Origin: Priestia megaterium
GTDB lineage: Bacteria; Bacillota; Bacilli; Bacillales; Bacillaceae_H
Assembly: GCF_023824195.1 (NCBI RefSeq)
Contig: NZ_CP085442.1
Span: forward strand, 310,001-374,000
DNA: 64,000 nt
Reading direction: 5' to 3'
The translations under genes and the position numbers were made by a program. How positions within the stretch are numbered: position 1 is the first letter of the stretch; each line of letters begins with the position of its first letter. Of the stretch, positions 5,392 to 27,000 are shown piece after piece. The notes under the pieces were generated by a model that had not been told where the DNA came from, ran no database searches, and saw only the letters and a list, made by a program, of their open reading frames with translations.

Positions 5392-5393
5392 GA

Positions 5394-5480: not shown

Positions 5481-5510
5481 AAAAGCGAGCAGATGCATCT
5501 GCTCGCTTTT
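5481..5510. terminator. Perfect 30-base palindrome, likely bidirectional terminator
   Basis: AAAAGCGAGCAGATG followed directly by its reverse complement. It has A and T tracts at both ends, so it could stop transcription from either side; on the minus strand it would end any transcript of the element at 5525-5880. Confidence 0.6.
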
Positions 5511-5524
5511 GTTCGTGTTTCTTA

Positions 5525-5880
5525 TCAGTAACTTGCTTTTTGCAAGTGTAAAAACAAAATGATTACTTTCTTTATAAAATCCATGATTACGGTTTTTGTA
5601 TGTTTCGTTGTTGTTAGGGCACAATTAGCATTGATTGTGCTTGCATGGATTTCATCCATTGCCGCGGTTTGTTTTTCCACATGATCGATTAACCTAAACG
5701 ACGCAAGCCCTACCTCTCTTGCATCCTTACGGCTCCGAAGCCGATCCAGTGTGAATAAGTTTTGTTCAAAGACATGTGTCGAATGCCAGTATTTTTACCT
5801 TGCATTGTACGATACATCCTTTCAAGTTACTTTCACTATGTCCAGCTCTTAAAGAAAAGCCAGAAATCTAAATATAACAC
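5525..5880 (-). other. Unassigned 350-base stretch with broken coding traces (possible degenerate repeat)
   Basis: This gap between genes holds no intact gene. On the minus strand, two overlapping frames look weakly protein-like. One starts at an ATG near 5819 behind AAAGG and runs about 35 codons with aromatic-rich text such as NKTYSHWIGFGAV. The other is open from 5794 to a stop at 5525 and reads RLIDHVEKQTAAMDEIH in its middle. The two frames overlap as if one gene had shifted frame. Base composition is more GC-rich than the surroundings. I do not recognise a family. It may be a remnant of a mobile or dispersed element, or a structured RNA; both are guesses. Confidence 0.3.
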
Positions 5881-6027
5881 CTCAGTTGATCTATGTCAAA
5901 TAGAAAATATGATTTTTTTCACGTGAAACAATTGTAGCTAAAACATGGTTAAGTAAAGGGATATCCTTTTTATATAGAACAGTTTTTTGATACGATAAGC
6001 TAGAGGAATCCTAGAGGGGGATTAAAT

Positions 6028-6516
6028 ATGAATAAAAATGAACAGTTTCGAAATGACGTATTGAGCAGTGTGGAATCATTATCATATGAACAATTAAATC
6101 AACAGCCAGCATCTAATACATGGAGCGTTATGCAAGTATTAAAACATTTATATTTGATGGAGCGCATGATTGTTTCACGTGTAAAAGATCAATTAGAAAA
6201 CGGTGTAGATCAGCCGACTGAAGATAAGCCGTTTCATTTAGCAGTAGATCGTTCACGAAAAGTAGATGCACCAGCACAGGTCACACCTTCTAATGAAAAG
6301 CAGACATTAGAAGAAATGAAGAGTAAGCTGGCAGAATCAAGAGCGGCTTTAGTGGAATTAGAAGAGGCAGCCAGTGAAGATAAGCTAAAGAAAAAATCGT
6401 TTCCGCACCCTGTGTTTGGGTTAATGGATTTAAAGCAGTGGATTGATTTTATTGGCTATCATGAAAAGCGTCATCAAGAACAAATAGAAGAACTCAAAAC
6501 AGCAATTGGTGCATAA
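6028..6516 (+). CDS. DinB-superfamily protein
   Basis: A 162-residue four-helix-bundle protein of the DinB/YfiT type. The expected metal-ligand histidines are visible as HLYLMER near residue 39 and the C-terminal GYHEKRHQEQ pair. Members of this superfamily in Bacillus are small cytosolic, often metal-dependent thiol-transferases (bacillithiol S-transferases such as BstA are in this fold) and many have no assigned substrate. A transferase role is therefore only a possibility here. The ribosome site is AGAGGGG, and a bidirectional terminator separates it from the convergent lipase. Middle residues 105-125 are strongly charged and helical. Confidence 0.75.
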   Translation: MNKNEQFRNDVLSSVESLSYEQLNQQPASNTWSVMQVLKHLYLMERMIVSRVKDQLENGVDQPTEDKPFHLAVDRSRKVDAPAQVTPSNEKQTLEEMKSKLAESRAALVELEEAASEDKLKKKSFPHPVFGLMDLKQWIDFIGYHEKRHQEQIEELKTAIGA

Positions 6517-7549: not shown

Positions 7550-9004
7550 TTGGAGCAATTTGTATCGAGTTTGAATAATGTACTATGGAGCACACCTGTT
7601 ATTTATGGGTGTCTTGCGATTGGCCTGTTTTTCTCAATTTTAACGAGGTTTTTGCAGGTGAGGCACTTAAAAGACATGGTCATGCTGATGTTTCAAGGTA
7701 AAAGCTCAGAAGCAGGAGTTTCTTCCTTCCAAGCATTGTCTTTAGCACTATCGGGACGAGTTGGAACAGGAAACATCGCTGGAGTTGCGACAGCTATCGC
7801 TTTTGGAGGTCCAGGGGCTGTATTTTGGATGTGGGCAGTTGCCTTTATTGGTGCTTCTAGTGCATTCATCGAATCAACACTTGCTCAAATTTATAAAGTT
7901 AAGCAAGATGGTCAATATCGAGGTGGTCCAGCGTACTACATTGAAAAAGGAACAGGTATGAAATGGTATGGCATTTTATTTGCTCTTGCAGCACTGGTTG
8001 CGATGAGTATTTTAATGCCCGGTGTTCAATCTAACTCCATTGCGCTTGGCATCGACAATGCATTTGGCGTTAGTCCAACGGTTACAGCAGTAGGATTAGT
8101 TATTATTCTTGCTTTTATTATTTTTGGAGGCGTTAAGCGTATTGCAGGTGTGGCTCAATTCGTTGTCCCTTTTATGGCACTTGGGTATATTATTTTAGCT
8201 CTTATCATTATTGCCATGAATATTTCAGAGTTGCCGGGAGTTATCGCTCTTATTTTTAAAAGTGCTTTTGCATTAGATTCTGCTTTTGGAGGAATTGTTG
8301 GTTTAGCTGTTTCTTGGGGAGTTAAGCGCGGTATTTATTCAAACGAAGCAGGACAAGGAACAGGTGCGCACGCAGCAGCTGCAGCAGAAGTTTCACATCC
8401 AGTGAAACAAGGCCTTGTACAAGCTTTTTCGGTTTATATCGATACATTGTTCGTTTGTTCAGCGACAGCGTTTATGATTTTATTTACAGGCATGTACAAT
8501 ACGGAAGGACCAGGCGGTTCATTTATTATTTCAAATTTACCGGGTGTAGAAGCAGGACCTGGATTTACACAAGCTGCTATTGAAACAGTGTTGCCAGGGT
8601 TCGGAGCTGGCTTCGTGGCAGTTGCGCTCTTCTTCTTCGCATTTACAACGATTATGGCTTATTATTACATAGCCGAAACAAATATTGCTTATCTAACTCG
8701 CGGAAAGAACGGAAAGTGGGCTATGTTTGCATTAAAGCTTGTCCTTCTCGGAGCTACGTTCTACGGGTCAGTTAAACAAGCATCACTAGCTTGGGCGCTA
8801 GGTGATGTGGGGCTTGGTATAATGGTATGGCTAAATTTAATTGCTATCTTAATTTTAGCTAAGCCTGCATTAGTCGCATTAAAAGACTATGAAGCTCAGA
8901 AAAAACAAGGAGTAGATCCTGTATTTGATCCTGTTAAACTGGGAATTAAAAATGCAGACTACTGGGAGAAAGAATATAAGAAAGATGAGTCACAGGTTTC
9001 GTAA
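7550..9004 (+). CDS. Sodium:alanine/glycine symporter (AGCS family, AlsT-like)
   Basis: A 484-residue membrane transporter with about ten hydrophobic segments. The AGCS signature around residues 265-290 is clear: GIYSNEAGQGTGAHAAAAAE. Members import alanine, glycine or glutamine with Na+; the exact amino acid cannot be read from sequence. Start set at TTG 7550, 6 bases after AAGGGGG; an in-frame ATG at 7526 lacks a ribosome site. A well-formed sigma-A promoter lies just upstream and a perfect hairpin terminator downstream, so it is a single-gene unit. Confidence 0.9.
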   Translation: MEQFVSSLNNVLWSTPVIYGCLAIGLFFSILTRFLQVRHLKDMVMLMFQGKSSEAGVSSFQALSLALSGRVGTGNIAGVATAIAFGGPGAVFWMWAVAFIGASSAFIESTLAQIYKVKQDGQYRGGPAYYIEKGTGMKWYGILFALAALVAMSILMPGVQSNSIALGIDNAFGVSPTVTAVGLVIILAFIIFGGVKRIAGVAQFVVPFMALGYIILALIIIAMNISELPGVIALIFKSAFALDSAFGGIVGLAVSWGVKRGIYSNEAGQGTGAHAAAAAEVSHPVKQGLVQAFSVYIDTLFVCSATAFMILFTGMYNTEGPGGSFIISNLPGVEAGPGFTQAAIETVLPGFGAGFVAVALFFFAFTTIMAYYYIAETNIAYLTRGKNGKWAMFALKLVLLGATFYGSVKQASLAWALGDVGLGIMVWLNLIAILILAKPALVALKDYEAQKKQGVDPVFDPVKLGIKNADYWEKEYKKDESQVS

Positions 9005-11455: not shown

Positions 11456-11902
11456 GGAGTGAGACTGAATGGTTCGAAAAATTTGACCGTGGCGCTGTTC
11501 ATCGCTCGCAGCTCGAACAATGCGGCTTTGAATCCGAGCATTTGTGATTCTTCTAGCGATTGATTGATAAAATGGAACGGTTTCTACTTCATCTTTAATG
11601 GATTCAGAGACCCCTTCTTGAAAAGTATTTGGCAGTTTTATGTTTAATGAAATTTGTGGGTAGCTGCCTGATAAATCATAATAGGCTTTAGAAAACCAGT
11701 CAAAGTGTTTAATTTCATCCTGCCGAATACCTAATATAGCTTGTTGAAATTGATTATTAGGAGCCAGCTCTGCTAGGCGTGTATAGTAGTGAATAGCGGA
11801 AAACTCATCGTTTACGGCTTTGTTTATATCTCTTAGAACCTGTTCGTCTAGTCTTGTATCATCTTCCCAATATTCTTCATGCCGGGAGTAAAATTCATAC
11901 AT
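11447..11902 (-). CDS. Ferritin-like domain protein (YhjR-like)
   Basis: A 151-residue all-helical protein. Diiron-type ligand motifs are visible: NDEFSAIHYYTRLA (Glu then His region), RQDEIKHFDWF (E..H), a second Glu in KDEVETVPFYQ, and ASDEQRHGQIF (E..H). This is the pattern of ferritin-like/rubrerythrin-fold proteins that use a carboxylate-bridged diiron centre. Its role may be peroxide reduction or iron handling, which cannot be settled. The start at 11902 is chosen because AGGAGG lies 9 bases upstream; an in-frame ATG at 11920 would place that site inside the gene. Divergent from corA. Confidence 0.75.
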   Translation of the reverse strand: MYEFYSRHEEYWEDDTRLDEQVLRDINKAVNDEFSAIHYYTRLAELAPNNQFQQAILGIRQDEIKHFDWFSKAYYDLSGSYPQISLNIKLPNTFQEGVSESIKDEVETVPFYQSIARRITNARIQSRIVRAASDEQRHGQIFRTIQSHSPY

Positions 11903-12053
11903 ATGGATATACCTCCTCACCGTTTTGTTCTCTTGTCATCACCATCATCGTATGTATAAACAAGAAAAGGCGTACATTAAAAGAAAAAAGTTTAACAAAA
12001 TAGTAAAAAGGGTATGTGCAGAGAATAGTATCAAAAAAGACAGAGGTTATCTT

Positions 12054-13019
12054 ATGATTAAAATTGTAGCTAAAACCAAAGAAGGAGCTATTAAAGAAAT
12101 AGAAATGAATGAGATTCGTTCAAGCCATGACTTTCAATGGTATTGGGTTGATTTTTACAATCCCACCGAGGAAGAAAAAAAGCAGCTTGAACAATTCAAT
12201 TTTCATCCCTTAGCAGTTGAGGACTGTTTAAATCAAGGTCAGCGGGCTAAATTTGAGTTGTATGATGAGCATTATTTTTTAGTCTATTATGCACTTCATA
12301 AAGAAGAGCTTGAGCACTTAGAAGTATCTGCGTTTGTAGGGGATAACTTTTTAGTCACTTACCATATGGATAAGCTAACGAGCGTGGCTAGGGTGTGGGA
12401 GCTTATCAAAAAAGACCCTGAGGCTACCGAAGATGGAACATGGGATATCATGTATGAACTCTTAGATCATACCGTTGATGAATATTTCCCTGTGCTTTAT
12501 AAATTTGAAGATCACATAGACGACATTGAAGACAATGCAAAAGACGAACCTATGGATGAATTAATGAGGCAGCTTTATGATATCCGAAGTGATTTGTCAC
12601 GAATGCGCCGCATTTTAAACCCCATGAGAGATTTAATGTATCGTATTATGTCAACTAATGCGTTAAAAGCAAAAGAGCAGGTTCGCTATTTTAATGATAT
12701 TTATGACCATTTATTAAATATGATTGAAATTATGCAAGCAAGCAGGGATTTGTCAAATGACATCCGAGAAAGTTTTATGTCCATTAACTCGGATCGTATG
12801 AATTCAATTATGTTTACGCTAACGCTTATGTCAGCTATTTTCTTACCGTTGACGTTTATTGCTGGCCTCTATGGCATGAACTTTTCATATATGCCGGAAC
12901 TGACGGGGAAATATAATTATTTTATTGTACTGGGCATTATGATTGGGCTTGTAGGCGTAATGGTCTTTGCCTTTTATAAAATGGGATGGTTCAAATACCG
13001 AAAAGGACCTAAACTATAA
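12054..13019 (+). CDS. corA: CorA-family magnesium/divalent cation channel
   Basis: A 321-residue protein: a cytosolic N-terminal domain, a long helix, and two membrane segments at the C-terminus. The diagnostic GMN triad is present as LYGMNF near residue 273 at the end of the first membrane segment. It forms a pentameric Mg2+ channel in the family, gated by Mg2+ bound to the acidic cytosolic domain. The start ATG 12054 follows AGAGGT and gives the usual family length; the frame upstream encodes unlikely basic residues. It is close in size to B. subtilis YfjQ. Single-gene unit ending at a good terminator. Confidence 0.92.
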   Translation: MIKIVAKTKEGAIKEIEMNEIRSSHDFQWYWVDFYNPTEEEKKQLEQFNFHPLAVEDCLNQGQRAKFELYDEHYFLVYYALHKEELEHLEVSAFVGDNFLVTYHMDKLTSVARVWELIKKDPEATEDGTWDIMYELLDHTVDEYFPVLYKFEDHIDDIEDNAKDEPMDELMRQLYDIRSDLSRMRRILNPMRDLMYRIMSTNALKAKEQVRYFNDIYDHLLNMIEIMQASRDLSNDIRESFMSINSDRMNSIMFTLTLMSAIFLPLTFIAGLYGMNFSYMPELTGKYNYFIVLGIMIGLVGVMVFAFYKMGWFKYRKGPKL

Positions 13020-13158: not shown

Positions 13159-14760
13159 GTGAAACACGGAAGAATGGGGCTGCGAAGCATCACGGTGCTG
13201 CTTGTATGCATGGTGGTGATTCTATCACTATTGTTAACTGATTTATTAGTTAGCAGTTCAATTGGAAAAAATATTCGAGATCAACAGGCTGAAAAAGCTC
13301 GGACTATTGCTACGATTATTTCAGAATCAACGAACGTGAAAGAAGGACTAGAGACAAAAACACCTCAGTCAATTCAAGAATTTACTAAACGAATTCGTGA
13401 AAAATCAAGCGTCTTGTTTATCGTTGTTATGGATATGAATGGAATTCGCCAATCTCATCCAGATCCTAAAAAGATAGGAAAGAGGTTTGCCGGAGGCGAT
13501 GAGCAAAAATCATTGCACGGGAAATCTTATGTATCTGTATCAAAAGGAACGCTTGATAAATCTCTGCGCGCTTTTGCACCTATTTATAATGAAAAAAATC
13601 AACAAATTGGCGCAGTAGCTGTGGGGATTTCTTTGAATAATGTAAATGAAGCAATTAGAGATGGGCATCGTCGAATTGTTTTAGGTTCATTAATTGGTTT
13701 ACTTGTAGGCGTTCTTGGTGCTATTTTATTAGCGAATTACATAAAGAAAATTTTATTTGGCTTGGAACCTTCTGAAATTGCTAAAATTCTAGAAGAGAGA
13801 AGCACCATGCTGCAGTCGGTTCGTGAAGGAGTGATAGCTGTTGATAAAGAAGGTAATATTACACTTGCTAATCGCTCTGCACGTCGATTATTTGTTAAAG
13901 CAGGATTAGCACCAGAGCCAATCGGTTTGTCTATTCGAGAATATATGCCCACCTCCAGGTTGGACGACGTTTTGTCTACGGGGGAATCTCATTATGATGA
14001 AGAGCAAGTCATAAATGGAGTAGCCATTGTGGTTAATAGGGTTCCGCTAGTAGTAAACGAAGAGATTGTAGGGGCACTTTCTACGTTTCGGGATAAAACA
14101 GAAGTTAATATCTTAGCAGAACAGCTAACAGGTGTTAAAATGTATGTGGAAGCGCTTCGAGCACAATCGCATGAATTTATGAATAAACTTCATGTGATTT
14201 TAGGAATGGTGCAGATGAATTATTATGATGAGCTAAAAACGTATATTCATCAGCTTGTTAATCACCGTGTCGATGAATCTAGTTCAGTGACTAAATCTAT
14301 TAAAGATCATGCGTTGGCAGGGTTTCTCATGGGTAAAATGAGTTATGCTAGAGAGGAAAGCGTAGAACTGACGTTTTCCGCTGATGAAGTTATTCCAGAA
14401 CCTTCAGATCCACACGTTACTCATCATCTCATTACCATTATTGGAAATTTAATTGATAATGCAATTGATTCAGTTTGTCATCAAGCCGCTAAAAAAGTGT
14501 CTGTTATGCTTGTGTATAAAAACAATAAACTTACGATTCAAGTCACGGATACAGGCTGCGGCATTCCTTCCGATACAATGAATCAGATTTTCAAGAAAGG
14601 CTTTTCTACAAAAGGAACGAGCAGAGGGTTTGGGCTGCATTTAGTGAAGCAAACGATTGATGAACTAGGTGGCCAAATCGTCATTGACTCATTTATAAAT
14701 AGCGGTACCACATTCTATATTGATATTCCGTACGAAACAAGGAGAGATCAAGTTGATTAA
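13159..14760 (+). CDS. CitA/DcuS-family sensor histidine kinase
   Basis: A 533-residue membrane kinase. Order seen: N-terminal membrane segment (about 10-30), extracytoplasmic sensor domain (about 35-170) of the single-Cache type found in citrate/C4-dicarboxylate sensors, second membrane segment (about 175-195), a PAS domain, the SPOB-like phosphoacceptor helix with ALRAQSHEFMNKLHV, and a HATPase domain with NLIDNAIDS and DTGCGI motifs. Length equals that of B. subtilis MaeK (YufL), a malate sensor, but DctS and CitS are close relatives and the ligand is unclear. GTG start after GAGGGAAG. It overlaps its response regulator by 8 bases. No carboxylate transporter gene is adjacent, unlike usual loci. 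Confidence 0.88.
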   Translation: MKHGRMGLRSITVLLVCMVVILSLLLTDLLVSSSIGKNIRDQQAEKARTIATIISESTNVKEGLETKTPQSIQEFTKRIREKSSVLFIVVMDMNGIRQSHPDPKKIGKRFAGGDEQKSLHGKSYVSVSKGTLDKSLRAFAPIYNEKNQQIGAVAVGISLNNVNEAIRDGHRRIVLGSLIGLLVGVLGAILLANYIKKILFGLEPSEIAKILEERSTMLQSVREGVIAVDKEGNITLANRSARRLFVKAGLAPEPIGLSIREYMPTSRLDDVLSTGESHYDEEQVINGVAIVVNRVPLVVNEEIVGALSTFRDKTEVNILAEQLTGVKMYVEALRAQSHEFMNKLHVILGMVQMNYYDELKTYIHQLVNHRVDESSSVTKSIKDHALAGFLMGKMSYAREESVELTFSADEVIPEPSDPHVTHHLITIIGNLIDNAIDSVCHQAAKKVSVMLVYKNNKLTIQVTDTGCGIPSDTMNQIFKKGFSTKGTSRGFGLHLVKQTIDELGGQIVIDSFINSGTTFYIDIPYETRRDQVD

Positions 14761-15478
14761 AGTATTAATTGTTGAAGATGACCCAATGGTTGCTCAGTTT
14801 AATCAAAAGTACATTGAAGAGATAGAGGGGTTTACAGTGGTCGCTGTTGCTCATTCGGGTCATGAAGCCTTGGTGAAGGTAAATGAATATCAAGTTGATT
14901 TAGTGCTGCTTGATATCTTTATGCCTGGGCAAAATGGTTTGAGAGTTTTACAAGAGATTCGAACAAAACAAGAGGAAATAGATGTCATTTTTATCACCGC
15001 TGCTTCGGATGCCCAAACAATTCAGCAAGCTTTACGCTACGGAGCGATTGATTATTTGATTAAGCCTTTTACATTTGAACGCTTTTATCAAGCACTTTCA
15101 GCTTATAAACAAACATTTCGTACGTTAAAACAGCAACCTCAGCTTAATCAACAGGAATTAGACGGGCTGCTGTCTAATAAAAAAATAAAAGAAGCTCCGA
15201 TAGAGCCGTTGCCTAAGGGTTTAACGACAGGAACATTAGAAGTTATCGTAGAAGCCATTGAGCATCTTAAAGATCACCCTTTTTCGACCGATGATGTCGC
15301 TGAAAAAACGGGAATTTCAAGAGTGTCTATTCGAAAATATTTAAAATTTCTAACAGATATAGGTCTTCTTGGGGAAAGAATGACTTACGGCACAATAGGA
15401 CGTCCTGTGTATGCGTACTTATACAATGAACAAAACCGTCACTTGCTGCATCACTACCTCGTTGACTTTGAAAAATAA
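14753..15478 (+). CDS. CitB/DcuR-family response regulator
   Basis: A 241-residue regulator. The receiver domain (1-125) has the acidic pocket EDD, the phosphoacceptor Asp in LVLLDIFMPG, the switch Thr (FITAAS) and Lys (LIKPF). The C-terminal half contains a helix-turn-helix (FSTDDVAEKTGISRVSIRKY), the type used by CitT/MaeR/DctR regulators. TTG 14753 is chosen as start: GGAGAG lies 6 bases upstream and the codon overlaps the kinase stop, giving translational coupling. It would activate dicarboxylate or citrate uptake genes located elsewhere (inference from family). Confidence 0.88.
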   Translation: MIKVLIVEDDPMVAQFNQKYIEEIEGFTVVAVAHSGHEALVKVNEYQVDLVLLDIFMPGQNGLRVLQEIRTKQEEIDVIFITAASDAQTIQQALRYGAIDYLIKPFTFERFYQALSAYKQTFRTLKQQPQLNQQELDGLLSNKKIKEAPIEPLPKGLTTGTLEVIVEAIEHLKDHPFSTDDVAEKTGISRVSIRKYLKFLTDIGLLGERMTYGTIGRPVYAYLYNEQNRHLLHHYLVDFEK

Positions 15479-15619: not shown

Positions 15620-16279
15620 TTGATTGAAAGCATAGAACGCTTGACTGAATTACTGTTATCAGGGAATCAAGATGAAGCTTGGAATATTGTGTGGGAAAAA
15701 AGACAGCAGGGTTTCGATACATTTTATATTTTTCAGCAATTCATTTCAGTGTCAATGGCTCAAATCGGTATGATGTGGGAAGAAGATGAAATCTCAGTGG
15801 CTGATGAACATTTAGCTACTACTACCTGTGACTATGTTTTGTCACGCTATCAATTGTGTATAAAACAAGAAGTTATTAAAAATGAAAAAAAAGGTCTGTT
15901 TTTGTGTATAGAAAATGAACAGCATTTTTTAGGTTTAAAAATGATTTCCATTCTCTTTGAAGAGCACGGATGGCAGACGAAACTTTTAGGAGCAGATTCT
16001 CCGCTTTTACATGCAACGCACGCTGTTGAACAATGGAAACCTGATTTAGTAGGAATCTCGTTCAGTTTAACTCATCATATAGAAAAAGCAAACGAATATA
16101 TAGAAGGATTACAAAAGACAAAACATCAGCCGCTTATTTTAGTTGGAGGCCGAGTAGTTTCAAACTATAAGTTTCCTCTTGTTCAAACAAATCAAGTTCG
16201 ATTTATTGCACAGTTAGAGGAGTTGAAAGAGTTTCTTCATTATCAATCAATTAGGGGGATTAAGGTTGTCGACTATTAA
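15620..16279 (+). CDS. Stand-alone cobalamin-binding protein with CarH-type photosensor motifs
   Basis: A 219-residue soluble protein with two parts: a helical cap domain (about 1-85) and a Rossmann-like B12-binding domain (about 90-205). The cap carries W53-x9-E63-H64 (MWEEDEISVADEH), and the B12 domain carries E100-x-H102-x-x-G105 (EQHFLG), with a later GG turn (VGGRVV). These are the two signatures used to recognise CarH-type adenosylcobalamin photoreceptor modules (established knowledge); H102 would be the lower cobalt ligand. There is no MerR DNA-binding domain, so it would act through a partner. TTG start after GAGGTGG. It overlaps the PAS-STAS gene by 14 bases. Light sensing is inferred, not shown. 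Confidence 0.82.
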   Translation: MIESIERLTELLLSGNQDEAWNIVWEKRQQGFDTFYIFQQFISVSMAQIGMMWEEDEISVADEHLATTTCDYVLSRYQLCIKQEVIKNEKKGLFLCIENEQHFLGLKMISILFEEHGWQTKLLGADSPLLHATHAVEQWKPDLVGISFSLTHHIEKANEYIEGLQKTKHQPLILVGGRVVSNYKFPLVQTNQVRFIAQLEELKEFLHYQSIRGIKVVDY

Positions 16280-17018
16280 ATATGCTCCGCTTCCTGTTTT
16301 TATTATGGATGAGGAAATGAATATTCTAGCGCAATCTGATGAAGCAGCCGCTTTATTCGGAGAGGTTCAACATTTTTTAGAAATTGTTGACGAAGATAGT
16401 CAGAACAAAGCTAGAAAACGATTAGGGCAGAAGAAAAAAATAAAAACAGAATTAGTCATGCATTCGCGCAAAGCTAAGATGTCTCTTTATACCGTGAATT
16501 GCAAATGGGAGCAAGATAAGGCGCATGTAATATGTGTAGAGGAAGATTCTCAAATTAGAATTCTTTCAGAAAAAATCGAACAACATACAGCGCGTTTATC
16601 TGAAACAGACTTAGAACTGCTGCTGCAAAAAGAACGATTAGAAAAAGCAATGAACCGAGTTATAGAACTGTCGGGACCGTTTATTCATTTATCGAACAAC
16701 ATGGTGCTTATACCTCTGTTTGGTGATTTATTTGAGGAAGTCATCATGAAAAATGAACATCGGCTGCTCAGACAAATAGATGAGGAAACGGTTGATCGAG
16801 TTATCATTGACTTTAATGGAATAGGTCAAATTGATGAACGAGGTGTTGCAGCCCTAGAACATTTAATATGGGAATTTCAGCTAATGGGTGTACAGATTTA
16901 TTTAACAGGTGTGACACCCGATCATAGTCAATGGCTTCACCAGTATCATTTTCAAGCAAATGTAAAATCTATTAGTAACTTAGGTCAGGCCATTCATCAA
17001 TTTTTTACAACGGCATGA
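16266..17018 (+). CDS. PAS-STAS protein, RsbR-like
   Basis: A 250-residue soluble protein. Residues 1-90 look like a small PAS domain (FIMDEEMNILAQSDEAA), then a charged helical linker (95-130), then a STAS domain (about 135-250) starting with the RsbR-type segment SGPFIHLSNNMVLIPLFGDL. In B. subtilis, RsbR paralogues build the stressosome and are phosphorylated on two threonines. Here the first Thr position (DT) is IDE and the second (AQT) is SQW, so both acceptors are absent. TTG 16266 follows AGGGGG and lies inside the end of the B12-protein gene, so the two are translated together and probably interact. Confidence 0.78.
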   Translation: MSTIKYAPLPVFIMDEEMNILAQSDEAAALFGEVQHFLEIVDEDSQNKARKRLGQKKKIKTELVMHSRKAKMSLYTVNCKWEQDKAHVICVEEDSQIRILSEKIEQHTARLSETDLELLLQKERLEKAMNRVIELSGPFIHLSNNMVLIPLFGDLFEEVIMKNEHRLLRQIDEETVDRVIIDFNGIGQIDERGVAALEHLIWEFQLMGVQIYLTGVTPDHSQWLHQYHFQANVKSISNLGQAIHQFFTTA

Positions 17019-17095
17019 AATGGCTACAAAAAGTGAACACTTCATATAAAGACAATAAGACAGGGGATCAATACTGATAAACAGGTGATTAAAAT

Positions 17096-18406
17096 TTGGT
17101 GAAACACGCGCGTAAAGTAGCTTTAAGAATTTCAATTATATATATCATTATTGGCGCTGTATGGATCTTGATATCTGATAATATATCTAGAACATTAGCG
17201 CAAGGTCGTTTTGAAGTATATATTTTTTTTCAACAATACAAAGGTTGGTTTTTTATTTTAGCTACGGGGATTATTTTGTATGGGTTAGTATATAGGAGAG
17301 CTTATAAACTAGTGGAGTCCCAGCAAGAGCTCGTAGTGAAAGAACACGAACTTCAAACGAGCAATCAGCACTATCAATCTTTATTCAAACATAATCCCGA
17401 TGGCGTTTTTGAAATAAGTAAAACGGGTGAAGTTCTTCTTGCTAATCCAGAAGGTGAAGCAATCGTTGGATACTCCAGTGAAGAATTGCAAAAGATGAAA
17501 CCTTCAGCTCTTATCGCAGCTGAAGAGTTTGATATGTGTAAAGAGTATTTTAAAGAAGTGCTGAATGGAAAAGGTGCTAAGTTCGAAATGAATGTGATCA
17601 ATAGAAAGCGAGAAAGACGGGTGCTTAGGTGTTCTTTGCTTCCCATCATCGTTCATAAGCAGGTAGTAGGCGTATTTATGATTGCACGCGATATTACTAC
17701 ATACCGTCAAGATGAAGAGCTTATGATAACCTCGGAAAAAATGTCGGTTATTGGACAAATGGCAGGTGCCGTAGCACATGAAATTAGAAACCCGCTTACT
17801 TCTTTAAAAGGTTTTGTACAGGTTATGCAAGCCTCTAAGGAAACAAATGACACATATTTAGATATTATGATGTCTGAAATCGACCGCATCAACTTAATCT
17901 CCAGTGAAATGCTCATTCTTGGAAAAAAGCAGCATGTATCTTTTGAAAAGACCAATTTATGCGAGATTTTAAAACAAGTTATTACCCTAATGGAAGCGCA
18001 GGCCAATTTAAATAATGTTTCTATTTTATTGAAAGAAACAGCCAAAAGGCCTATTTATGTTTCAGCTGATGCAAATCAGTTGAAACAAGTGTTCATCAAT
18101 GTGATTAAAAATGGTGTAGAAGCTATTATGGAGAAAGGTCATATTACAATAACAGTTGAAGAAAAAGATACACGAGCATTGATTCACTTTGAAGACAATG
18201 GAATCGGAATGAGTCAAGAGAGGATTGAACAAGTAGGAACGCCGTTTTATTCTACAAAAGAAGCTGGCACTGGCTTAGGGCTGGCCGTGTGTTACAAAAT
18301 CATGGAGCGTCATCAAGGTACCATGCATTTTAAAAGCGGTAAAGGAAAAGGGACAACGGTTACTATTGATATGCCAATTATAGAACGAAACAGCCGCCTC
18401 TCGTAG
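17096..18406 (+). CDS. PAS-domain sensor histidine kinase (sporulation-kinase type)
   Basis: A 436-residue membrane kinase. Two membrane segments lie near residues 12-28 and 45-65 with almost no external loop. A PAS domain follows (about 85-205; NPDGVFEISKTGEVLLANPEG), then the HisKA H-box AGAVAHEIRNPLTSLKG and the HATPase domain with NVIKNGVEAI, DNGIGM and GTGLGLAVCYKI. This layout matches the KinB/KinE-like orphan kinases that feed the sporulation phosphorelay, but no partner regulator is adjacent. It lies 77 bases after the PAS-STAS gene with no terminator between, so it is likely in the same operon. TTG 17096 or GTG 17099 could start it; AGGTGA lies 7-10 bases upstream. Confidence 0.85.
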   Translation: MVKHARKVALRISIIYIIIGAVWILISDNISRTLAQGRFEVYIFFQQYKGWFFILATGIILYGLVYRRAYKLVESQQELVVKEHELQTSNQHYQSLFKHNPDGVFEISKTGEVLLANPEGEAIVGYSSEELQKMKPSALIAAEEFDMCKEYFKEVLNGKGAKFEMNVINRKRERRVLRCSLLPIIVHKQVVGVFMIARDITTYRQDEELMITSEKMSVIGQMAGAVAHEIRNPLTSLKGFVQVMQASKETNDTYLDIMMSEIDRINLISSEMLILGKKQHVSFEKTNLCEILKQVITLMEAQANLNNVSILLKETAKRPIYVSADANQLKQVFINVIKNGVEAIMEKGHITITVEEKDTRALIHFEDNGIGMSQERIEQVGTPFYSTKEAGTGLGLAVCYKIMERHQGTMHFKSGKGKGTTVTIDMPIIERNSRLS

Positions 18407-20234: not shown

Positions 20235-20552
20235 ATGGATGCAATTGATGATCTCTTTGACGACATAGAGCGAAGAAGAAAAAGTAAAGAATATAGTCGA
20301 GATGCAGATCAATTAGAATCATATTTACATGAAGTTCAACGTATCATGGAATTTCTTGAAGAGGGTATCTATCTGTTTCAAAATTCGCACCAACAATATG
20401 CGTCAGATTGGTCAGGGCGTTCTAAGAGCTCATATGAGGATATTTATAATGATATTACGCAATCTACTTTTCATCTGTACGACGTAAGGGATGAATTGTT
20501 TCAAACTTTACGCTTAGAAATTTCACGATTAAGAGAGTTAGCATCGGCGTAA
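20235..20552 (+). CDS. Small helical protein, probable type VII secretion substrate or chaperone
   Basis: A 105-residue, very acidic, all-helical protein with a central SDWSGRS turn between two long helices, which is the helical hairpin shape of WXG100-like proteins with a WSG in place of WXG. No signal peptide. It lies 1.9 kb before yukE and just before an LXG/WXG-like gene, so I place it with the type VII secretion system as a substrate, or as the small partner found upstream of LXG toxins (compare B. subtilis YwqH/YwqI). I do not recognise a named family with confidence. ATG 20235 follows a weak GTGGGG site. Confidence 0.6.
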   Translation: MDAIDDLFDDIERRRKSKEYSRDADQLESYLHEVQRIMEFLEEGIYLFQNSHQQYASDWSGRSKSSYEDIYNDITQSTFHLYDVRDELFQTLRLEISRLRELASA

Positions 20553-20661
20553 TAAATAACATTATCGACTCACTCCTTTAGAAAGTGAGTCTTTCCGTAT
20601 AGGCTTAAAAAATGTTTGGATGATGACTGAAGGCTTACAAGAGATAGGGGGACGGACATAC

Positions 20662-21261
20662 ATGGAGATAAAAGTAAATCCAGAGGTGCTGCAGACATTT
20701 GCAGAGCGAATTCAGCAGTCTCATTCACAGACGGCTGATGCACTTCAAAAACTAAGCTGGGAAGCTACAAATCTACATTTCTTGTCTGTTGCAGATATTG
20801 ATAAAGTGCTGGACTTGCAGGAAGAGTTACAGCATATGATTCGCAAACTTGATTCGCTAACGGAAAACGCACATTTATTAGTAAAAGACACTGCAGAACA
20901 AATGAGAAAAGCAGATGGAGAGCTAGAAGGCTCTTCAGGCTGGACGGAGTTTTGGTCGAGCGTGTGGAGCGATGGGAGCACCCATTCACAAGATACGTGG
21001 AATGACATAAAGAACTTAAAAGAATGGAATACGTATGACAATATGCATAGAACGATTGAAAAACCTTTAGGTACTCTTAATGTTATGTGGAATTCGCTTT
21101 CTATGTCTTGGGAAGAAAAAGTAGTGAATGGTTCTACATGCAGTCGAACGGAATTTTTTACTTATGGCGTTATTCAAATGGGGTTGGGCATTTTAAGTCA
21201 GGAAATGAATCCTTCAAACATTATGTTTAGTGACAGCACAGAGGAAGTGAAGAGAGAATGA
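20662..21261 (+). CDS. WXG/LXG-like secretion protein lacking a toxin domain
   Basis: A 199-residue protein. The first 100 residues form a WXG100-like helical hairpin beginning MEIKVNPEVLQTF. The next part (about 105-185; TWNDIKN, then SWEEKVVNGST, then FFTYGVIQMGLGIL) resembles the linker or pretoxin region that precedes the C-terminal toxin in LXG-type polymorphic toxins. The protein stops there, so no toxin is present. ATG 20662 is preferred: GGGGG lies 10 bases upstream. Its stop overlaps the start of a 22-codon ORF as ATGA. It could be a truncated effector, a decoy or an adaptor; the homology is by pattern only. Confidence 0.6.
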   Translation: MEIKVNPEVLQTFAERIQQSHSQTADALQKLSWEATNLHFLSVADIDKVLDLQEELQHMIRKLDSLTENAHLLVKDTAEQMRKADGELEGSSGWTEFWSSVWSDGSTHSQDTWNDIKNLKEWNTYDNMHRTIEKPLGTLNVMWNSLSMSWEEKVVNGSTCSRTEFFTYGVIQMGLGILSQEMNPSNIMFSDSTEEVKRE

Positions 21262-21326
21262 ATGAAGTATATGATGGCGCTGGAAGTGAAATGGTACAGT
21301 TCCTTACAGGGTTGTCTCGGCAATGA
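21258..21326 (+). CDS. 22-residue micro-ORF coupled to genes on both sides
   Basis: ATG 21258 overlaps the upstream gene's TGA as ATGA, and its own TGA (21324-21326) overlaps the next gene's ATG (21323) as ATGA. The peptide starts MNEVYDGAGSEM and ends GLSRQ. The double stop-start overlap suggests translational coupling across three reading frames. It may be a real small protein, a re-initiation relay, or the remnant of a longer gene that lost its frame. No similarity is recognised. Confidence 0.4.
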   Translation: MNEVYDGAGSEMVQFLTGLSRQ

Positions 21327-21715
21327 AATATACATTTAACTTATTAGAAAAATCATTAATTGAAGCAATGAAAGATAATAAGAAAATTGCTCAATTTTAT
21401 AAAACTTTAATGAATAGCAATTTATGGCTAGTTGTTAGTTCAGAGCATGGAGCATCAGATATATTAATTGCAGAGCACTACGTTCAGACGATGAAAAGCG
21501 CAGCGTACCGATATTTACCTGTTTTTTCGTCAAAATATCCGATTGAACAGATGCTGAAAGATGAAAAGACCGTATGCGTATCATTTAAGGATATGCTGCC
21601 TGTATTAAATGAAGAAATAGCGATATTACTTAACCCTGACACGCCTCTCTCAAAATTATTCATCCCCGAAGAAATAAGGATGTTAAAAGAAGATCAAAAT
21701 TATTTTAAGCAGTAG
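21323..21715 (+). CDS. SseB-like domain protein
   Basis: A 130-residue soluble protein resembling the SseB N-terminal domain: the pattern LNPDTPLSKLFIPEEIRML near the end and the preceding FKDMLPVLNEEI match how those proteins close. SseB-like proteins have no agreed biochemical role. Genes of this type are seen near type VII secretion and polymorphic toxin loci, so an accessory or immunity-like function is possible (inference). Start ATG 21323 has no strong ribosome site of its own and overlaps the preceding micro-ORF stop, so it probably depends on translational coupling. Confidence 0.6.
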   Translation: MKYTFNLLEKSLIEAMKDNKKIAQFYKTLMNSNLWLVVSSEHGASDILIAEHYVQTMKSAAYRYLPVFSSKYPIEQMLKDEKTVCVSFKDMLPVLNEEIAILLNPDTPLSKLFIPEEIRMLKEDQNYFKQ

Positions 21716-22053
21716 CCAAAAAATAAAAAGCGCATGTGCTTTTTCAAAACATGTCTGAATCTTAAATAAATAGAAGATATATAAAGAGGCAGGGCCTTAA
21801 ATAGGCTGCTGCTTTTTTATTACTAGTAAATAGTTCTATAGATAATGAACAAAAATGTAATTTAATAGTCTTATAGTTTTTATTTTCCTTTAAATAGGTA
21901 CCTATAGATCAGATGGAAAAGGTTTAAATGAGAACAAAATCTTGGTTATTTAGGTTTTATTTGCATTTTTTAGGGGTATTTGTAGATACATATTCTCATT
22001 TTTGGAGGCTTTTGCAAGTAACCTTTGACCTTAACACTAGAGTTTCTTACAAT
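21716..22053 (+). promoter_or_regulatory. Gap before yukE with a sigma-A promoter at 22025-22053
   Basis: Most of this AT-rich stretch holds no gene. Near its end, TTGACC (22025-22030), a 17-base spacer and TACAAT (22048-22053) form a strong sigma-A promoter 35 bases before yukE. Short weak hairpins near 21730 and 21790-21820 may end the upstream operon. Confidence 0.7.
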
Positions 22054-22087
22054 AATAGTAAATATATAAACCGAAGGAGAGATATGT

Positions 22088-22381
22088 ATGTCAGGGATTA
22101 TTCGCGTAACACCAGCAGAGCTTCGCGACATGGCAGGTCGTTATACTAACGAAAGCGGTCAAGTTCAAGAATTAGTAAGCCGTCTTGATACAATGAAAAA
22201 TCAACTTCAAGACATGTGGGAAGGTGCTTCAAGCGAAGCGTTTGCTGCTCAATACGAAGAATTAAAGCCTTCTTTCGTTGAAATGTCTAACCTACTTACA
22301 AAGATTGCTAAGCAATTAGATGACTCTGCAAATGTTCTTGAAGATACAGATAACCAAATCGCTAGCCAAATCCGCGGTTAA
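22088..22381 (+). CDS. yukE: WXG100 protein, type VII secretion substrate
   Basis: A 97-residue helical hairpin protein with the hallmark WEG turn (LQDMWEGASSEAF) at residues 43-45. YukE/EsxA is the main exported substrate of the Bacillus Yuk (Ess) system and is recognised by the last ATPase domain of EssC as a dimer. The C-terminal export signal YxxxD/E form is not obvious, as is usual for EsxA-type proteins. A strong ribosome site (GAAGGAGAG) and promoter precede it. A hairpin with a T run follows it, so the mRNA for yukE is probably made in excess over the downstream machinery genes. Confidence 0.93.
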   Translation: MSGIIRVTPAELRDMAGRYTNESGQVQELVSRLDTMKNQLQDMWEGASSEAFAAQYEELKPSFVEMSNLLTKIAKQLDDSANVLEDTDNQIASQIRG

Positions 22382-22415
22382 CTTCATCTAATAATCTAAG
22401 TGAAGTAATAAAAGG

Positions 22416-22449
22416 AGCGCCCTATTCTCAAAAGATGAAGGCGCTTTTT
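22416..22449 (+). terminator. Attenuating terminator between yukE and yukD
   Basis: AGCGCC-18 bases-GGCGCT followed by five T. It has a short stem, so read-through into yukD is likely. Confidence 0.6.
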
Positions 22450-22474
22450 CTATGTTTTGAGGTGATGAAACCCT

Positions 22475-22714
22475 ATGTATATAGAAGTAACAGTAGACTT
22501 AAAGCACTATACAGGTGATCGGTTCGATTTGCGACTATCAAACTATCATTCACTCAAAAAAGTAGTCGAGATCGTTTGGCAAGCTAAAAAGATTACTCAG
22601 TCACCAAAGGACGGTGCGTGGATACGTGTTTCAAATAAAAATCTTATTTTCTCGGGAAATGAGACGATGATTAACTGCGGAATTACCACAGGTGATTGTA
22701 TCGAAATTCTCTAA
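22475..22714 (+). CDS. yukD: Ubiquitin-like YukD protein of the type VII secretion system
   Basis: A 79-residue protein with the beta-grasp pattern of YukD/EsaB: an initial strand pair (MYIEVTVDLKHY), a helix (SLKKVVEIVWQAKK), and a closing ITTGDCIEIL strand. It has no C-terminal diglycine, as expected because YukD is not conjugated. It is a cytosolic component needed for YukE export in B. subtilis. It is followed 14 bases later by yukC, with an AAAGGAG ribosome site overlapping its stop. Confidence 0.88.
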   Translation: MYIEVTVDLKHYTGDRFDLRLSNYHSLKKVVEIVWQAKKITQSPKDGAWIRVSNKNLIFSGNETMINCGITTGDCIEIL

Positions 22715-22728
22715 AGGAGTCTATTAGA

Positions 22729-24033
22729 ATGTCAGAGAAGAAACCGACTTACTTAGAAGAACAGCTCGAAGCTGTAATGACACGTCATAATAATGAATAT
22801 ACATTTATTTTTCAAAAAGAAAAAATTCGACTTAATCGTTCTGTTGAGATTGAAATGTTAAAGGATGTAAACACGGCTTTTCAAAAAGAAATCATGATGA
22901 GCGATGATGAACTTAAAATAACAATTAAGCCTACTTCTGAATTTCAACCTTTTACAGCATTAAGAGGAAAAGAAGAACAGCAAAAATGGCTGTTTGCAGA
23001 TCAGCTTATCAAACAGGTAAAGCAGCATTCTTTTTCAAGGCTGCATTTGTTGATTTGTCCAGAAAATATCATTTTTGATAAAAGTTTAAGTCCGGCTTTT
23101 TTACATTATGGAGTCAAAGAAAGTTTACCTCCTTATGAGTCTAACGAGGAACAAAGCTTTCAAGAGTTAAAGGCTACGATAGCAGCGGCCGTTGACTCAT
23201 CGCATACATTTGAACAGTATTTTAAGTTATATGAGACCTTGCAATTAAAAGAAGACGCTAAAAAAATAATGCATATCAGCAATGAGGAAGAGTTGAGTCA
23301 ATTTGTTCAGCATAAGCTAACCCAAATTGAAAAGCATCAAAAGACACTCGTTCAACTTCCTCAAAAACGCTGGACTATTTTTAAGTTTTCATCTGTGGGT
23401 ATACTTGTCTTATTAATTCCAGCTCTTATTTATACTTTTTACTCTTACTTTTTTGCTCAGCCGAAACAAGAAGCATTTGTAGAAAGCAACGAATACTTTC
23501 TTGAAAAAAACTACAGCAAAGTAGTCGACACACTTGAAGATTATGACATTGAAAGCATGCCTAAAATTGTGCAATACGAAATAGCAACTTCCTATCTTGT
23601 TAATGAAAAGTTAGGGGAGGAGCAAAAAGCAAATGCTTTAAAGACTATTACGCTTCAGTCAGATCCTCAGTATTTTGCCTATTGGTTTTACATTGGCCGA
23701 GGAGACAACAAAAAAGCGCTAGAAGTCAGCAGGTTGTTAGAAGAACGTTCATTAATTATCTATGCACTAATGAAATACGAAGGTCAGCTAAAGACAGACA
23801 ACGATTTAGCGGCTGATAAAAAGCAAGAGGAGCTTGATAAAGTAGCGAACGAACTTGAAGAATTTAAGAAAGAAAATGATCAGCAAGAAGCGGAAGCAGC
23901 CAAGCAGCAAGAAGAGAAACAAGCTGAGGAGGCACAGGCGGCCAAGCAGCAGGAAGAAGATCAGAAAGCTGCAGAAGCCGAGAAAAAGAAACAAGAAGAG
24001 CAGAAAAAACAGCAGGAAGACCAATCGAAGTAG
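22729..24033 (+). CDS. yukC: YukC/EssB membrane component of type VII secretion
   Basis: A 434-residue bitopic membrane protein. The cytosolic N-terminal half (about 1-210) has the pseudokinase fold of EssB; one membrane segment spans about 218-242 (FKFSSVGILVLLIPALIY); the external part starts with helical residues (about 250-350) and ends in a roughly 75-residue highly charged Glu/Lys/Gln-rich coiled-coil tail. EssB links the EssC ATPase to the membrane channel. ATG 22729 follows AAAGGAG. The charged tail is long and repetitive in DNA, so its length may vary between strains. Confidence 0.9.
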   Translation: MSEKKPTYLEEQLEAVMTRHNNEYTFIFQKEKIRLNRSVEIEMLKDVNTAFQKEIMMSDDELKITIKPTSEFQPFTALRGKEEQQKWLFADQLIKQVKQHSFSRLHLLICPENIIFDKSLSPAFLHYGVKESLPPYESNEEQSFQELKATIAAAVDSSHTFEQYFKLYETLQLKEDAKKIMHISNEEELSQFVQHKLTQIEKHQKTLVQLPQKRWTIFKFSSVGILVLLIPALIYTFYSYFFAQPKQEAFVESNEYFLEKNYSKVVDTLEDYDIESMPKIVQYEIATSYLVNEKLGEEQKANALKTITLQSDPQYFAYWFYIGRGDNKKALEVSRLLEERSLIIYALMKYEGQLKTDNDLAADKKQEELDKVANELEEFKKENDQQEAEAAKQQEEKQAEEAQAAKQQEEDQKAAEAEKKKQEEQKKQQEDQSK

Positions 24034-24045
24034 GGAGGTAGTTGT

Positions 24046-27000
24046 ATGAATATGCTTTGGGTAGTTAGTGGGCAAACGTATCAGCAGCTGCCTGTAGATT
24101 TTAAAACCTTTCGCCAAGCAACGGTTGGAAACACTCAGCATCAAACTTTTACGTTTTCCTATCCGTTTGAGAAAGGGCAAATGACGCTGTCATCTGAAAA
24201 GAACGGCCGGCTCTTAATTTCCTACGGAGAAGAAAGGATAGCAGAGCTATCTGTTTCTGAGTCGTTTGTATGGCGAGAACAAGGACATGCTTTAACCTTT
24301 GTCCTTACAGAGACGGCTGTTAAAGAAGCTGTCTATTATATTGATTACGGATCAGAAGTTTCGTTTTCCACAAGTGATGAAGCAGCTGATGTGTATCAGC
24401 AGAAACAAAAGTGTGTAGTAGAGCCAAAAGAAGGATTTTACTTATCAAAGATAAACGGGAAGTGGAAGGTCTTTTATAACCAAGAACCGCTTTATCTTAA
24501 CGGACACCGACTAGAAGAGAATACGAACCTTCAGCCCGGAGATCTTATTTTATGGTCTTCTATGACGATTCAATTGATCGAAAAAGATTTGCTGAAGATT
24601 CAAAGCTACTACGATTATGCATCTAAGCTTCCAGCTACGGCACAGCCTATTTCTGAAATGAAAAAGAAGTACCCGGTTTATAGACGGACACCGCGCATGA
24701 TATATGATTTGCCTAATGATAAGGTAAGCTTGTCCTTTCCGTCTCAGGACAATGATGAAAATAACCGAAGCTTATGGCTTACTATTTTACCGCCATTAGT
24801 CATGCTTTTAGTCATGGGTACGGTCTCGATTATTCAGCCTAGGGGAATTTTTATTATTATATCTGTCATGATGTTTACGACTACGCTGATTGTATCTACC
24901 GTTCAATACTTCAAAGATAAAAAACAGCGCAAGAAGCGGCAGGAGCGTCGTCGTCGAATTTATACAAAGTATTTAGAAAACAAGCGCGAGGAATTACAAG
25001 AACTAGTATCAGTTCAACGAGATGTATTATCTTATCATTTTCCGACGTTTGAACGAATGAAATATTTAACAGAACAGATTTCTGATCGAATTTGGGAACG
25101 AACTGTAGAAAGCAGTGATTTTTTACAGGTGCGCCTTGGAACAGGAACAGTTCCGGGAAGCTACCAAATTTCTTTGAATAGCGGAGATATGGCTAATCGA
25201 GAAATTGATGATTTGCTTGAGCAGTCTCAGCACATGGAAAAGGTCTATCGAGAAGTGAAAAATGCCCCTGTTACCGCTCATTTAGGTTTAGGCTCTATCG
25301 GTCTGGTAGGAAAGATGAAAACGGTGAAGAATGAACTGCATCAGCTTGTAGGACAGCTGGCATTTTCCCACAGTTATCATGACCTAAGATTCGTATTCAT
25401 TTTTGATGAAGAAGAATATAAAGAGTGGGAATGGATGAAATGGCTTCCTCATTTTCAGCTTCCGCATTCTTTTGCGAAAGGTTTCATCTATAATGAACAA
25501 ACGAGAGATCAGCTTTTATCTTCTATTTATGAAATGCTGAGAGAACGCGATTTAGATGAAGCAAAAGGAGAAGGGGTTTTCTTGCCTCACTTTGTTTTTA
25601 TTATTACGAATCAGCAGTTAATTGCAGATCACGTTATCTTAGAGTATTTAGAAGGATATCACCCTCACCTTGGGTTCTCTGCGATATTTGCGGCAGAGAC
25701 AAAGGAAAGCTTAACGGAGCATGTTCATACACTCGTCCGTTATATTAACGAATCCGAGGGGGATATATTAATTCAAAAGCAAAAAGCTGTGAATATTCTA
25801 TTTCAGCTTGATAAACACACGCTTGATTATAATGAAAGATTTGCAAGGATGCTGCGAACATTGGATCACCAAGTCGGCATGACCAACTCAATTCCAAATA
25901 GCGTTTCATTCTTAGAATTATTTAAAGCAAGAGAAATTGGTGAGTTGGATATCGTGCAAAGGTGGCAAAGCAATGAATCAGCTAAGTCGCTAGCAGTTCC
26001 CATTGGTTTAAAAGGAAAAGAAGATATTGTTGAACTAAATCTTCATGAAAAAGCTCACGGCCCTCATGGATTACTTGCAGGTACGACGGGGTCAGGAAAA
26101 AGTGAATTCTTACAAACGTACATTCTTTCTCTAGCGGTGAATTTCCACCCCCATGAAGTTGCGTTTTTATTGATTGACTATAAGGGCGGAGGAATGGCTC
26201 AGCCGTTTAAAAACATGCCTCATCTGCTTGGAACCATTACAAACATTGAAGGAAGTAAGAATTTTAGTACAAGAGCCCTAGCTTCTATTAAAAGTGAATT
26301 AAAACGGCGCCAGCGCTTGTTTGATAGATATGAAGTCAATCACATTAATGATTATACAGATTTATATAAGCAAGGTATGGCAGAAGAACCTCTGCCTCAT
26401 TTATTCTTAATCTCGGATGAATTTGCCGAGTTAAAAAGTGAAGAACCAGAGTTCATTCGGGAATTAGTCAGCGCGGCGCGCATTGGACGTAGTCTGGGCG
26501 TTCATTTAATTTTAGCGACGCAAAAGCCAGGCGGTGTTATTGACGATCAAATTTGGAGTAACGCGCGCTTTAAAGTAGCTTTAAAAGTCCAAGATGCCGC
26601 TGACAGTAAAGAAATTTTAAAAAATGCGGACGCTGCTTCTATTACGGTGACGGGTCGAGGCTATCTGCAGGTTGGAAATAATGAAGTGTATGAACTGTTT
26701 CAGTCAGCTTGGAGCGGCGCGCCGTACATGGAAGATACGTATGGGGCTGAAGATGAAGTCGCCATTGTCACAGATCTCGGGTTGATTCCTTTATCTGATG
26801 TATCTACTCAGCAGACGTCATCTAAACAAGCGGAAGCAGAAATTGATGTTGTGGTGCAAAAAATTGAAAAAACGCAGCAGGAACTAGCTATCAAAAAATT
26901 AAATAGTCCATGGCTGCCGCCTCTTAAAGAAAGATTGCTTCGCAGTGAGTACAAAGAGAAGCGAGACGGCGTATTCCCAATTGGCTTGATTGATGAACCG

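Follow-up and report, generated by a model that had tools for sequence, protein, structure and literature searches.

How might a cobalamin-based light sensor that carries no DNA-binding domain pass on its signal? This question is raised by two overlapping genes in a stretch of 64,000 nucleotides from Priestia megaterium (contig NZ_CP085442.1, positions 310,001 to 374,000), hereafter called the window, whose own numbering is used below unless a locus label (L) precedes the coordinates. The first gene codes for a B12-binding protein with a CarH-type cobalamin domain and the second for a PAS-linker-STAS protein. We propose that the two genes encode a split light receptor, wherein adenosylcobalamin, perhaps together with a bilin, would provide light input to the stressosome via a YtvA-like partner. 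We assign this proposal a probability of about 60%.

The B12-binding protein (219 aa, TTG start; 15620..16279) is encoded on the + strand, as are all other features of this locus, and its description rests on the open reading frame (ORF), Pfam and an AlphaFold2 model. Two Pfam B12 families score above the cut-off and one chance match falls below it. The four-helix cap (B12-binding_2, residues 5-74; 15632..15841) includes W53 (codon 15776-15778) and E63-H64 (codons 15806-15811), whereas the Rossmann B12-binding domain (residues 91-184; 15890..16171) includes E100-x-H102-xx-G105 and G124-xxx-P128. H102, which is the expected lower cobalt ligand, is encoded at 15923-15925. Among 73 different B12 proteins, the window's included, G50, W53, E63, E100, H102 and G105 are kept in all 73, and H64, G124 and P128 are kept in 72. 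The W-x9-EH and E/DxH patterns were already noticed in a first-pass annotation of the DNA, and judging from this alignment these signature residues are not present by chance. As that annotation also claimed, no DNA-binding domain, including one of the MerR type, is found in the protein by a Pfam scan; nor is a globin domain such as the fused biliverdin globin of photocobilins. The AlphaFold2 model (mean predicted local distance difference test score, pLDDT, of 88.6) has a cap and a Rossmann fold like those of CarH and photocobilins. It matches PDB entry 8j2x with an E-value of 1.1e-13 and a template modelling (TM) score, on the query, of 0.75 (TMq), and its first seven PDB matches are the photocobilin SasPcob and the photoreceptor CtMerR.

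The partner protein (250 aa, TTG start; 16266..17018; ORF, Pfam, AlphaFold2) is encoded by a gene that shares 14 bases with the B12 gene (16266-16279). It is composed of a PAS domain (residues 1-92; 16266..16541) and a long helical linker (residues 95-134; 16548..16667), both delimited from the AlphaFold2 model and an alignment of partners, followed by a STAS domain (residues 144-241; 16695..16988). Pfam calls the STAS domain and makes no call for the N-terminal PAS domain. In the model (mean pLDDT 80.5; predicted TM score, pTM, 0.45), a PAS-like N-terminus precedes the long helix. The first PDB match is YtvA (2mwg, E 5.4e-12), followed by RsbS and SpoIIAA, and PAS-domain structures are matched as well. 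Over the whole length, the comparison with 2mwg gives a TM score of 0.38 and a root-mean-square deviation of 14, such that the domains match but their arrangement does not. The partner nevertheless has the layout of an N-terminal sensor domain, a linker and a C-terminal STAS domain that is typical of RsbR and YtvA. Both the overlap and the PAS-STAS architecture had been described in the first-pass annotation and stand, but its designation of the protein as RsbR type is loose, given that the STAS domain is nearest YtvA by sequence. The LOV cysteine motif, of the NCRFLQ type, is missing from the partner, whose PAS helices carry no Cys. In the host's own YtvA-like protein, this region reads GENCRFLQG.

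The pairing of the B12 gene with its partner is a conserved module. Look-ups of homologous proteins gave 26 and 14 relatives and a scan of contigs gave one locus (Priestia aryabhattai), and the counts presented here come from a search of 397 genomes of the order. Our B12 profile (A1, E <= 1e-20) matches 186 of these genomes. Neighbor counts for the B12, partner and photoglobin genes each use the best 150 matches, which for the B12 protein represent 130 genomes, and a partner had to be located directly downstream on the same strand with a gap of -80 to 150. A homologous partner is found directly downstream of 142 among the best 150 B12 matches, 122 by coordinates and 20 by inspection. The 28 matches beyond those counted by coordinates comprise 16 with a short partner, four with a kinase partner, two broken pieces, five with none and one (G096:C8:483819) that was not classed. 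Conversely, 28 of the best 150 partner matches do not adjoin a listed B12 match, and some of these may adjoin unlisted ones. When starts are taken from the longest ORFs, the two genes overlap for 38 of 38 STAS-type, 9 of 9 kinase-type and 16 of 20 short-type partners. In a wider sample from the phylum, 388 genomes yielded 23 with a B12 match, two of which belong to the order itself, and a locus from another family of the class (L114) carries a B12 gene plus partner. Damaged copies also occur: the Priestia genome G009 has broken B12 genes at two loci (L113 2473-3131 and L032), and G347, a member of the order, has a frameshifted STAS partner (L054).

The partners have a PAS-type domain in common and differ in their outputs. 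In an alignment of 65 STAS-, kinase- and short-type partners, which leaves out L054 and L020, residues P8, K48 and E62 are present in all 65 and the FLxLVD columns are conserved at 86-98%; the linker helix is best shared between STAS- and kinase-type partners. Two kinase-type partners (L061, L062) carry HisKA and HATPase_c domains by Pfam, and the kinase labels otherwise rest on length. Short-type partners (L063, L064, L003) end in a tail with no Pfam match above the cut-off, which by eye resembles a kinase dimerization helix. Of the 73 different B12 proteins, 38 are labeled STAS, 20 short, 9 kinase and 6 none, and three of these labels are wrong: L054 (a frameshifted STAS partner) and L020 (a fragment) are labeled short, and L044 (a STAS partner with a longer overlap) is labeled none. 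On a quick tree of the B12 proteins, the kinase, short and STAS labels change 1, 4 and 5 times, compared with shuffled means of 8.7, 17.7 and 24.6, a result that is helped by near-copies and includes L062 as a long branch. One further count that omits L054 and the rows labeled none, which are included in the per-group counts, gives three changes. Because the labels change so seldom, sensor and output appear to travel together. The short-type gene is convergent to a kinase gene at 7 of the 13 short-type loci with visible neighbors (L003, L063, L064, L070, L073, L077 and L094). These are 7 of 8 loci in one display (all but L067) and 0 of 6 in family code f11 (L067, L095-L099). Perhaps this convergent kinase is the target of the short-type partners.

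In many relatives, two additional genes are located upstream of the B12 gene, coding for an ABM-domain protein (101 aa, and as many as 119 if other starts are chosen) and for a helical protein 116-126 aa long. Both are present at L022, L044, L074-L076, L083-L085, L087-L093, L107 and L110, and neither lies within the stretch taken at L086. The 101- and 122-aa upstream genes had been considered as RsbS and RsbT candidates, which profile matches to ABM monooxygenases and photoglobin ruled out. The best PDB match for profile A8 of the helical protein is the biliverdin domain of SasPcob (8j2x, 8j2w; E 0.004), with phycocyanin next (0.012). Of the SasPcob residues, Asp270 and Trp296 are named as biliverdin contacts (PMC10979010). 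In the A8 alignment these correspond to D39 and W65 of the helical protein, given a numbering offset of 6 by which W55 and H102 of the chain are Trp61 and His108 of the paper. Among the fetched loci, all 27 different sequences keep both residues. The protein is therefore described here as a photoglobin, that is, a globin related to phycobiliproteins that retains the bilin contact residues.

The photoglobin profile matches 160 of the 397 genomes, 154 of which also have a B12 match. A photoglobin gene is directly upstream of 77 of the best 150 B12 matches, and 72 have both photoglobin and partner by coordinates. One protein (P0026) joins photoglobin and B12 domain in a single chain, as occurs at 10 of 18 fetched loci outside the order, among which L123 has an ABM gene upstream. 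At two f20 loci (L101, L102) the gene order is B12, kinase, ABM, photoglobin. With a separate B12 gene adjoined by a photoglobin that has the biliverdin-contact residues, the module looks like a photocobilin whose parts have become individual proteins. The ABM profile matches heme-degrading monooxygenases, and the protein has W65 in 23 of 27 and H75 in 27 of 27 sequences. Photoglobin and ABM genes, along with two additional B12/partner pairs in the host and the interchangeable outputs, were outside the view of the first-pass annotation. In the host the photoglobin and ABM genes are unlinked to the window pair, and in many relatives they are in the same operon as the B12 gene.

The 5.98 Mb host genome has eight matches to PF02310, three of which match profile A1, and each of these three is followed by an overlapping partner gene. 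Pair A is that of the window. Pair B is on the minus strand (B12, L002 5686-6351; partner, 4875-5699; 14-base overlap) and is divergent to a YtvA-like LOV-STAS gene (L002 7120-7899); two RsbR-like genes are nearby (8087-8971 and 11854-12669). From its predicted products, L002 4875-8971 groups stressosome genes with light-sensor genes, and this arrangement was counted toward the stressosome reading. In pair C (B12, L003 4947-5585; partner, 5582-6202; overlap of 4 bases) the partner is 206 aa long and has no STAS match. This pair is convergent with a gene for a 1186-aa protein, the end of which matches the window kinase described below; by eye, the 1186-aa protein also includes a CheB-CheR part. 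A fourth PF02310 match is, by eye, a MerR-B12 protein of the CarH/LitR type (L004 5250-6161, minus strand), in which W-x9-EH and ExHxxG are present and the Pro of GxxxP is absent. The host also has a sigma-B type operon with rsbR, rsbS, rsbT and the genes that come after them (L005, names assigned by eye). Its ABM-photoglobin pair (L082 7022-7327 and 6660-7025) is separated from pair B by about 19 kb.

We infer from these associations that the STAS-type partner is a putative stressosome component. RsbS (E <= 1e-15) is matched in 310 of the 397 genomes. Among the matches listed, a full-length STAS-type partner occurs in 127 genomes, all 127 of which have RsbS and all 127 of which have the B12 protein. 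Eight of the 186 B12 genomes have no RsbS match (G077, G164, G188, G213, G049, G087, G116 and G191), and the four that were examined (G077, G164, G188 and G213, of one family code) have a kinase partner. In addition, the B12 gene with a STAS-type partner is about 6.5 kb from rsbR-rsbS at nine loci of one genus code, eight of which carry ABM and photoglobin genes; at the tenth locus of this set (L083-L092), from another genus code, no rsb genes are found in its 20 kb.

The gene downstream of the window pair codes for a membrane PAS histidine kinase (436 aa, TTG start; 17096..18406; PAS, HisKA and HATPase_c by Pfam). According to the ORF list it is separated from the partner gene by 77 bases, and a simple scan of the + strand finds no terminator-like site between them, as the first-pass annotation had stated. 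It follows the pair in five genomes of the megaterium group (the window, L001, L111, L112 and L113, the last with a broken B12 gene) and is absent from all eight other loci compared (L103-L110). For this reason we lowered its rank as a core member, and it probably falls outside the conserved module. The earlier suggestion of a split B12 sensor joined to a stressosome-type protein has thus been strengthened by the conserved pairing, the photoreceptor fold matches and the RsbS association. In contrast, the three-family adjacency that was also put forward holds for the B12 and partner genes and fails for the kinase.

How could such a receptor work? The B12 protein would bind adenosylcobalamin, with H102 as lower ligand and W53, E63 and H64 lining the adenosyl pocket, and would be a dimer in the dark. 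Light would break the cobalt-carbon bond, move the E63-H64 helix and disturb the dimer. CarH-type domains share a common dimer core in the dark, and upon illumination SasPcob becomes a monomer with movement of its Glu-His helix, whereas AbDPcob remains dimeric and opens (PMC10979010). Because it lacks a DNA-binding domain, the B12 protein is expected to signal through contact with its co-translated partner, and the PAS domain together with the linker helix is the most likely docking site. There is precedent for such contacts: photocobilin domains that stand alone act in this way on a cyclase (PMC10979010), and in a crystal structure the AerR-like domain of AppA is located on the helix that links the PAS domains of PpsR, a position in which AerR was likewise modeled on CrtJ (PMC9144470). 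The simplest model would thus have docking on PAS plus linker passed on to the output. The partner would be a YtvA layout with PAS in place of LOV, and its STAS domain would join RsbR and RsbS in the stressosome; light would therefore change RsbT release and sigma-B activity, in a direction that is likewise a matter of inference. The biliverdin-binding photoglobin, encoded with the ABM-type monooxygenase, would probably add sensitivity to red light.

Several observations weigh against this proposal. No photoglobin gene is adjacent to the window pair, and the single copy in the host is unlinked to it; moreover, 73 of the best 150 photoglobin matches are not directly upstream of a listed B12 match, some of which may adjoin unlisted B12 matches. 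The match of photoglobin to SasPcob is weak and was obtained only with profile A8, whose rows include the fused protein P0026; with the five-row profile A4, phycocyanin was listed (E 0.035) but SasPcob was not. Where IsdG-type enzymes have their catalytic Asn, the ABM protein carries Ser (26 of 26 sequences with a letter there), which makes heme cleavage unsure. Methionine synthase chains (ranks 8-12) precede CarH chains (from rank 14) and AerR (rank 33) among the fold matches of the B12 model, and on this predicted structure fold alone cannot separate the protein from methionine synthase. The top NCBIfam model is the corrinoid protein MtgC_2 (44.3 bits, cut-off 370), followed by CarH (34.0 bits), also far below its cut-off. 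Of the four elements in the published CarH-type signature (GxxW, EH, GxxH and GxxxP; PMC11796333), the window protein has three, with N99 at the GxxH position, where G is found in 27 of the 73 proteins. Because RsbS is common, the genomes are related to one another and all four kinase cases examined belong to one family code, its correlation with STAS-type partners rests on few independent events. Finally, the Thr residues phosphorylated by RsbT (T171 and T205 of RsbRA) are replaced by D and E in the window STAS domain, and T or S occupies the equivalent positions in only 8 and 6 of 38 STAS-type partners. A minimal Bacillus subtilis stressosome reportedly signals without phosphorylation of T171 and S59, whereas T171A blocked the complete stressosome (PMC3944199), and the missing Thr residues therefore neither exclude nor support stressosome membership.

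The same split light receptor might instead serve a different output, for example if the STAS partner acts on the adjacent PAS kinase to control a phosphorelay such as that for sporulation. The short distance to the window kinase with no intervening terminator-like site would suit this arrangement, as would the family members whose partners are themselves histidine kinases and the convergence of short-type genes with kinase genes. However, the window kinase adjoins the pair in the megaterium group only, and the STAS partners co-occur with RsbS in every genome among the matches listed, are near rsbR-rsbS in one genus and match the structures of YtvA and RsbS. This output is therefore unlikely, although it deserves to be kept in mind.

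Other explanations dispense with light. Since the B12 fold occurs in many non-photosensory proteins and a cobalamin riboswitch is present in the same window (1558-1740), the B12 protein could report adenosylcobalamin availability or redox state. Nutrient sensing would not explain why a photoglobin adjoins about half of the B12 matches compared or why both biliverdin contacts are invariant, and with W53, E63 and H64 of the adenosyl pocket kept in 73, 73 and 72 of 73 proteins, this explanation is distinctly improbable. Photoglobin and ABM might alternatively form a heme or gas sensing set, with the B12 domain working with a heme-derived signal. The ABM proteins resemble IsdG and IsdI and, lacking the catalytic Asn, might bind heme without cleaving it, and AppA-type SCHIC domains bind heme in place of B12 (PMC9144470). 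Yet the B12-ligand histidine and the adenosyl pocket are conserved here, and the globin aligns at both named contacts with the biliverdin domain of a proven photocobilin, which renders such a set highly unlikely. Lastly, the MtgC_2 score might indicate a corrinoid carrier of a methyltransferase system of the MtgC, MtaC or MtbC type. We rejected this candidate as scarcely credible, given a score far below the cut-off, the retained photoreceptor residues, seven photoreceptor chains as the first fold matches, and five scanned neighbor proteins that are two-component, STAS and helicase proteins with no methyltransferases among them.

If the split light receptor proposed here operates as described, it would feed light perceived through B12, and perhaps through a bilin, into the sigma-B stressosome of many Bacillales, and bacteria with the module may possess a form of light sensing that is still to be demonstrated. 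In B. subtilis, SigB is reportedly activated by red light (PMC3019169). More tentatively, and at somewhat less than even odds, we envision a modular split photocobilin of the Bacillales. ABM would supply the bilin, photoglobin would sense red and B12 green or blue light, and a PAS adaptor would carry exchangeable outputs: STAS to the stressosome, a histidine kinase, or a short tail with a neighboring kinase. Three such channels in one cell, as in this host, would extend the light input of the general stress response across the full spectrum, in addition to YtvA, and which output type a host carries would depend on whether it has a stressosome. A design with one sensor, one PAS adaptor and several outputs could be useful for optogenetics, and makes signaling by a B12 photoreceptor to a protein instead of to DNA testable.

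Elsewhere in the window, a DcuS/MalK-type sensor kinase and a DcuR-type regulator (13159-15478) lie upstream of the pair and are treated as a separate two-component system. The cobalamin riboswitch (109 bits, + strand) precedes an ORF (1874-2671, + strand) for a 265-aa membrane protein whose HGLDADH motif presumably marks it as resembling a nickel/cobalt transporter. Rfam also matches a BsrC small RNA (5688-5774, + strand) and a purine riboswitch (50726-50827, - strand), and type VII (Ess/Yuk) secretion-like genes, judged by eye from ORFs, occupy 20235-28524.

Each part of the module is of a known kind, and none of the literature matches listed shows the parts split in this way together with a dedicated PAS-output gene of exchangeable type. 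No description of a B12-PAS-STAS pair appears in the titles and abstract openings listed, from which absence from print is not established, and a literature search for a B12-binding domain together with a STAS domain gave no match. Photoglobin has reportedly been linked to B12 light-sensor and signal-transduction domains by architecture and neighborhood, in work by Schneider et al. from 2022. The BBAG-2 globins of Myxococcales are likewise separate bilin-binding globins associated with a B12-binding protein, but they have a different motif (RGMC) and a heme oxygenase (HO)-type oxygenase, and excerpts of that work mention no STAS or kinase partner (PMC10151467).

CarH and LitR resemble the window protein in B12 fold and in the W-x9-EH and ExHxxG residues; unlike them, the window protein has no MerR DNA-binding domain, and its output would pass through a protein partner. 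YtvA, which gives light input to sigma-B in Bacillus, likewise has a sensor domain, helical linker and STAS domain, whereas the partner's PAS domain is without the LOV cysteine motif and the photochemistry would be placed in a second protein. AerR/PpaA with CrtJ/PpsR is similar in that a non-DNA-binding B12 photoreceptor is cotranscribed with the PAS partner that it regulates (PMC9144470). In that system the partner has a PAS-HTH architecture and regulates photosystem genes, whereas here it is a PAS-STAS, PAS-kinase or PAS-short protein. The photocobilins SasPcob and AbDPcob also combine a CarH-type B12 domain with a biliverdin globin, and as standalone proteins they regulate a partner by contact (PMC10979010). 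In the module described here, globin and B12 domain are encoded by separate genes, followed by a dedicated and mostly overlapping PAS-output gene. The nearest printed statement that we found is the prediction that STAS and SpoIIE/PP2C proteins are interaction partners of SasPcob (PMC10979010).

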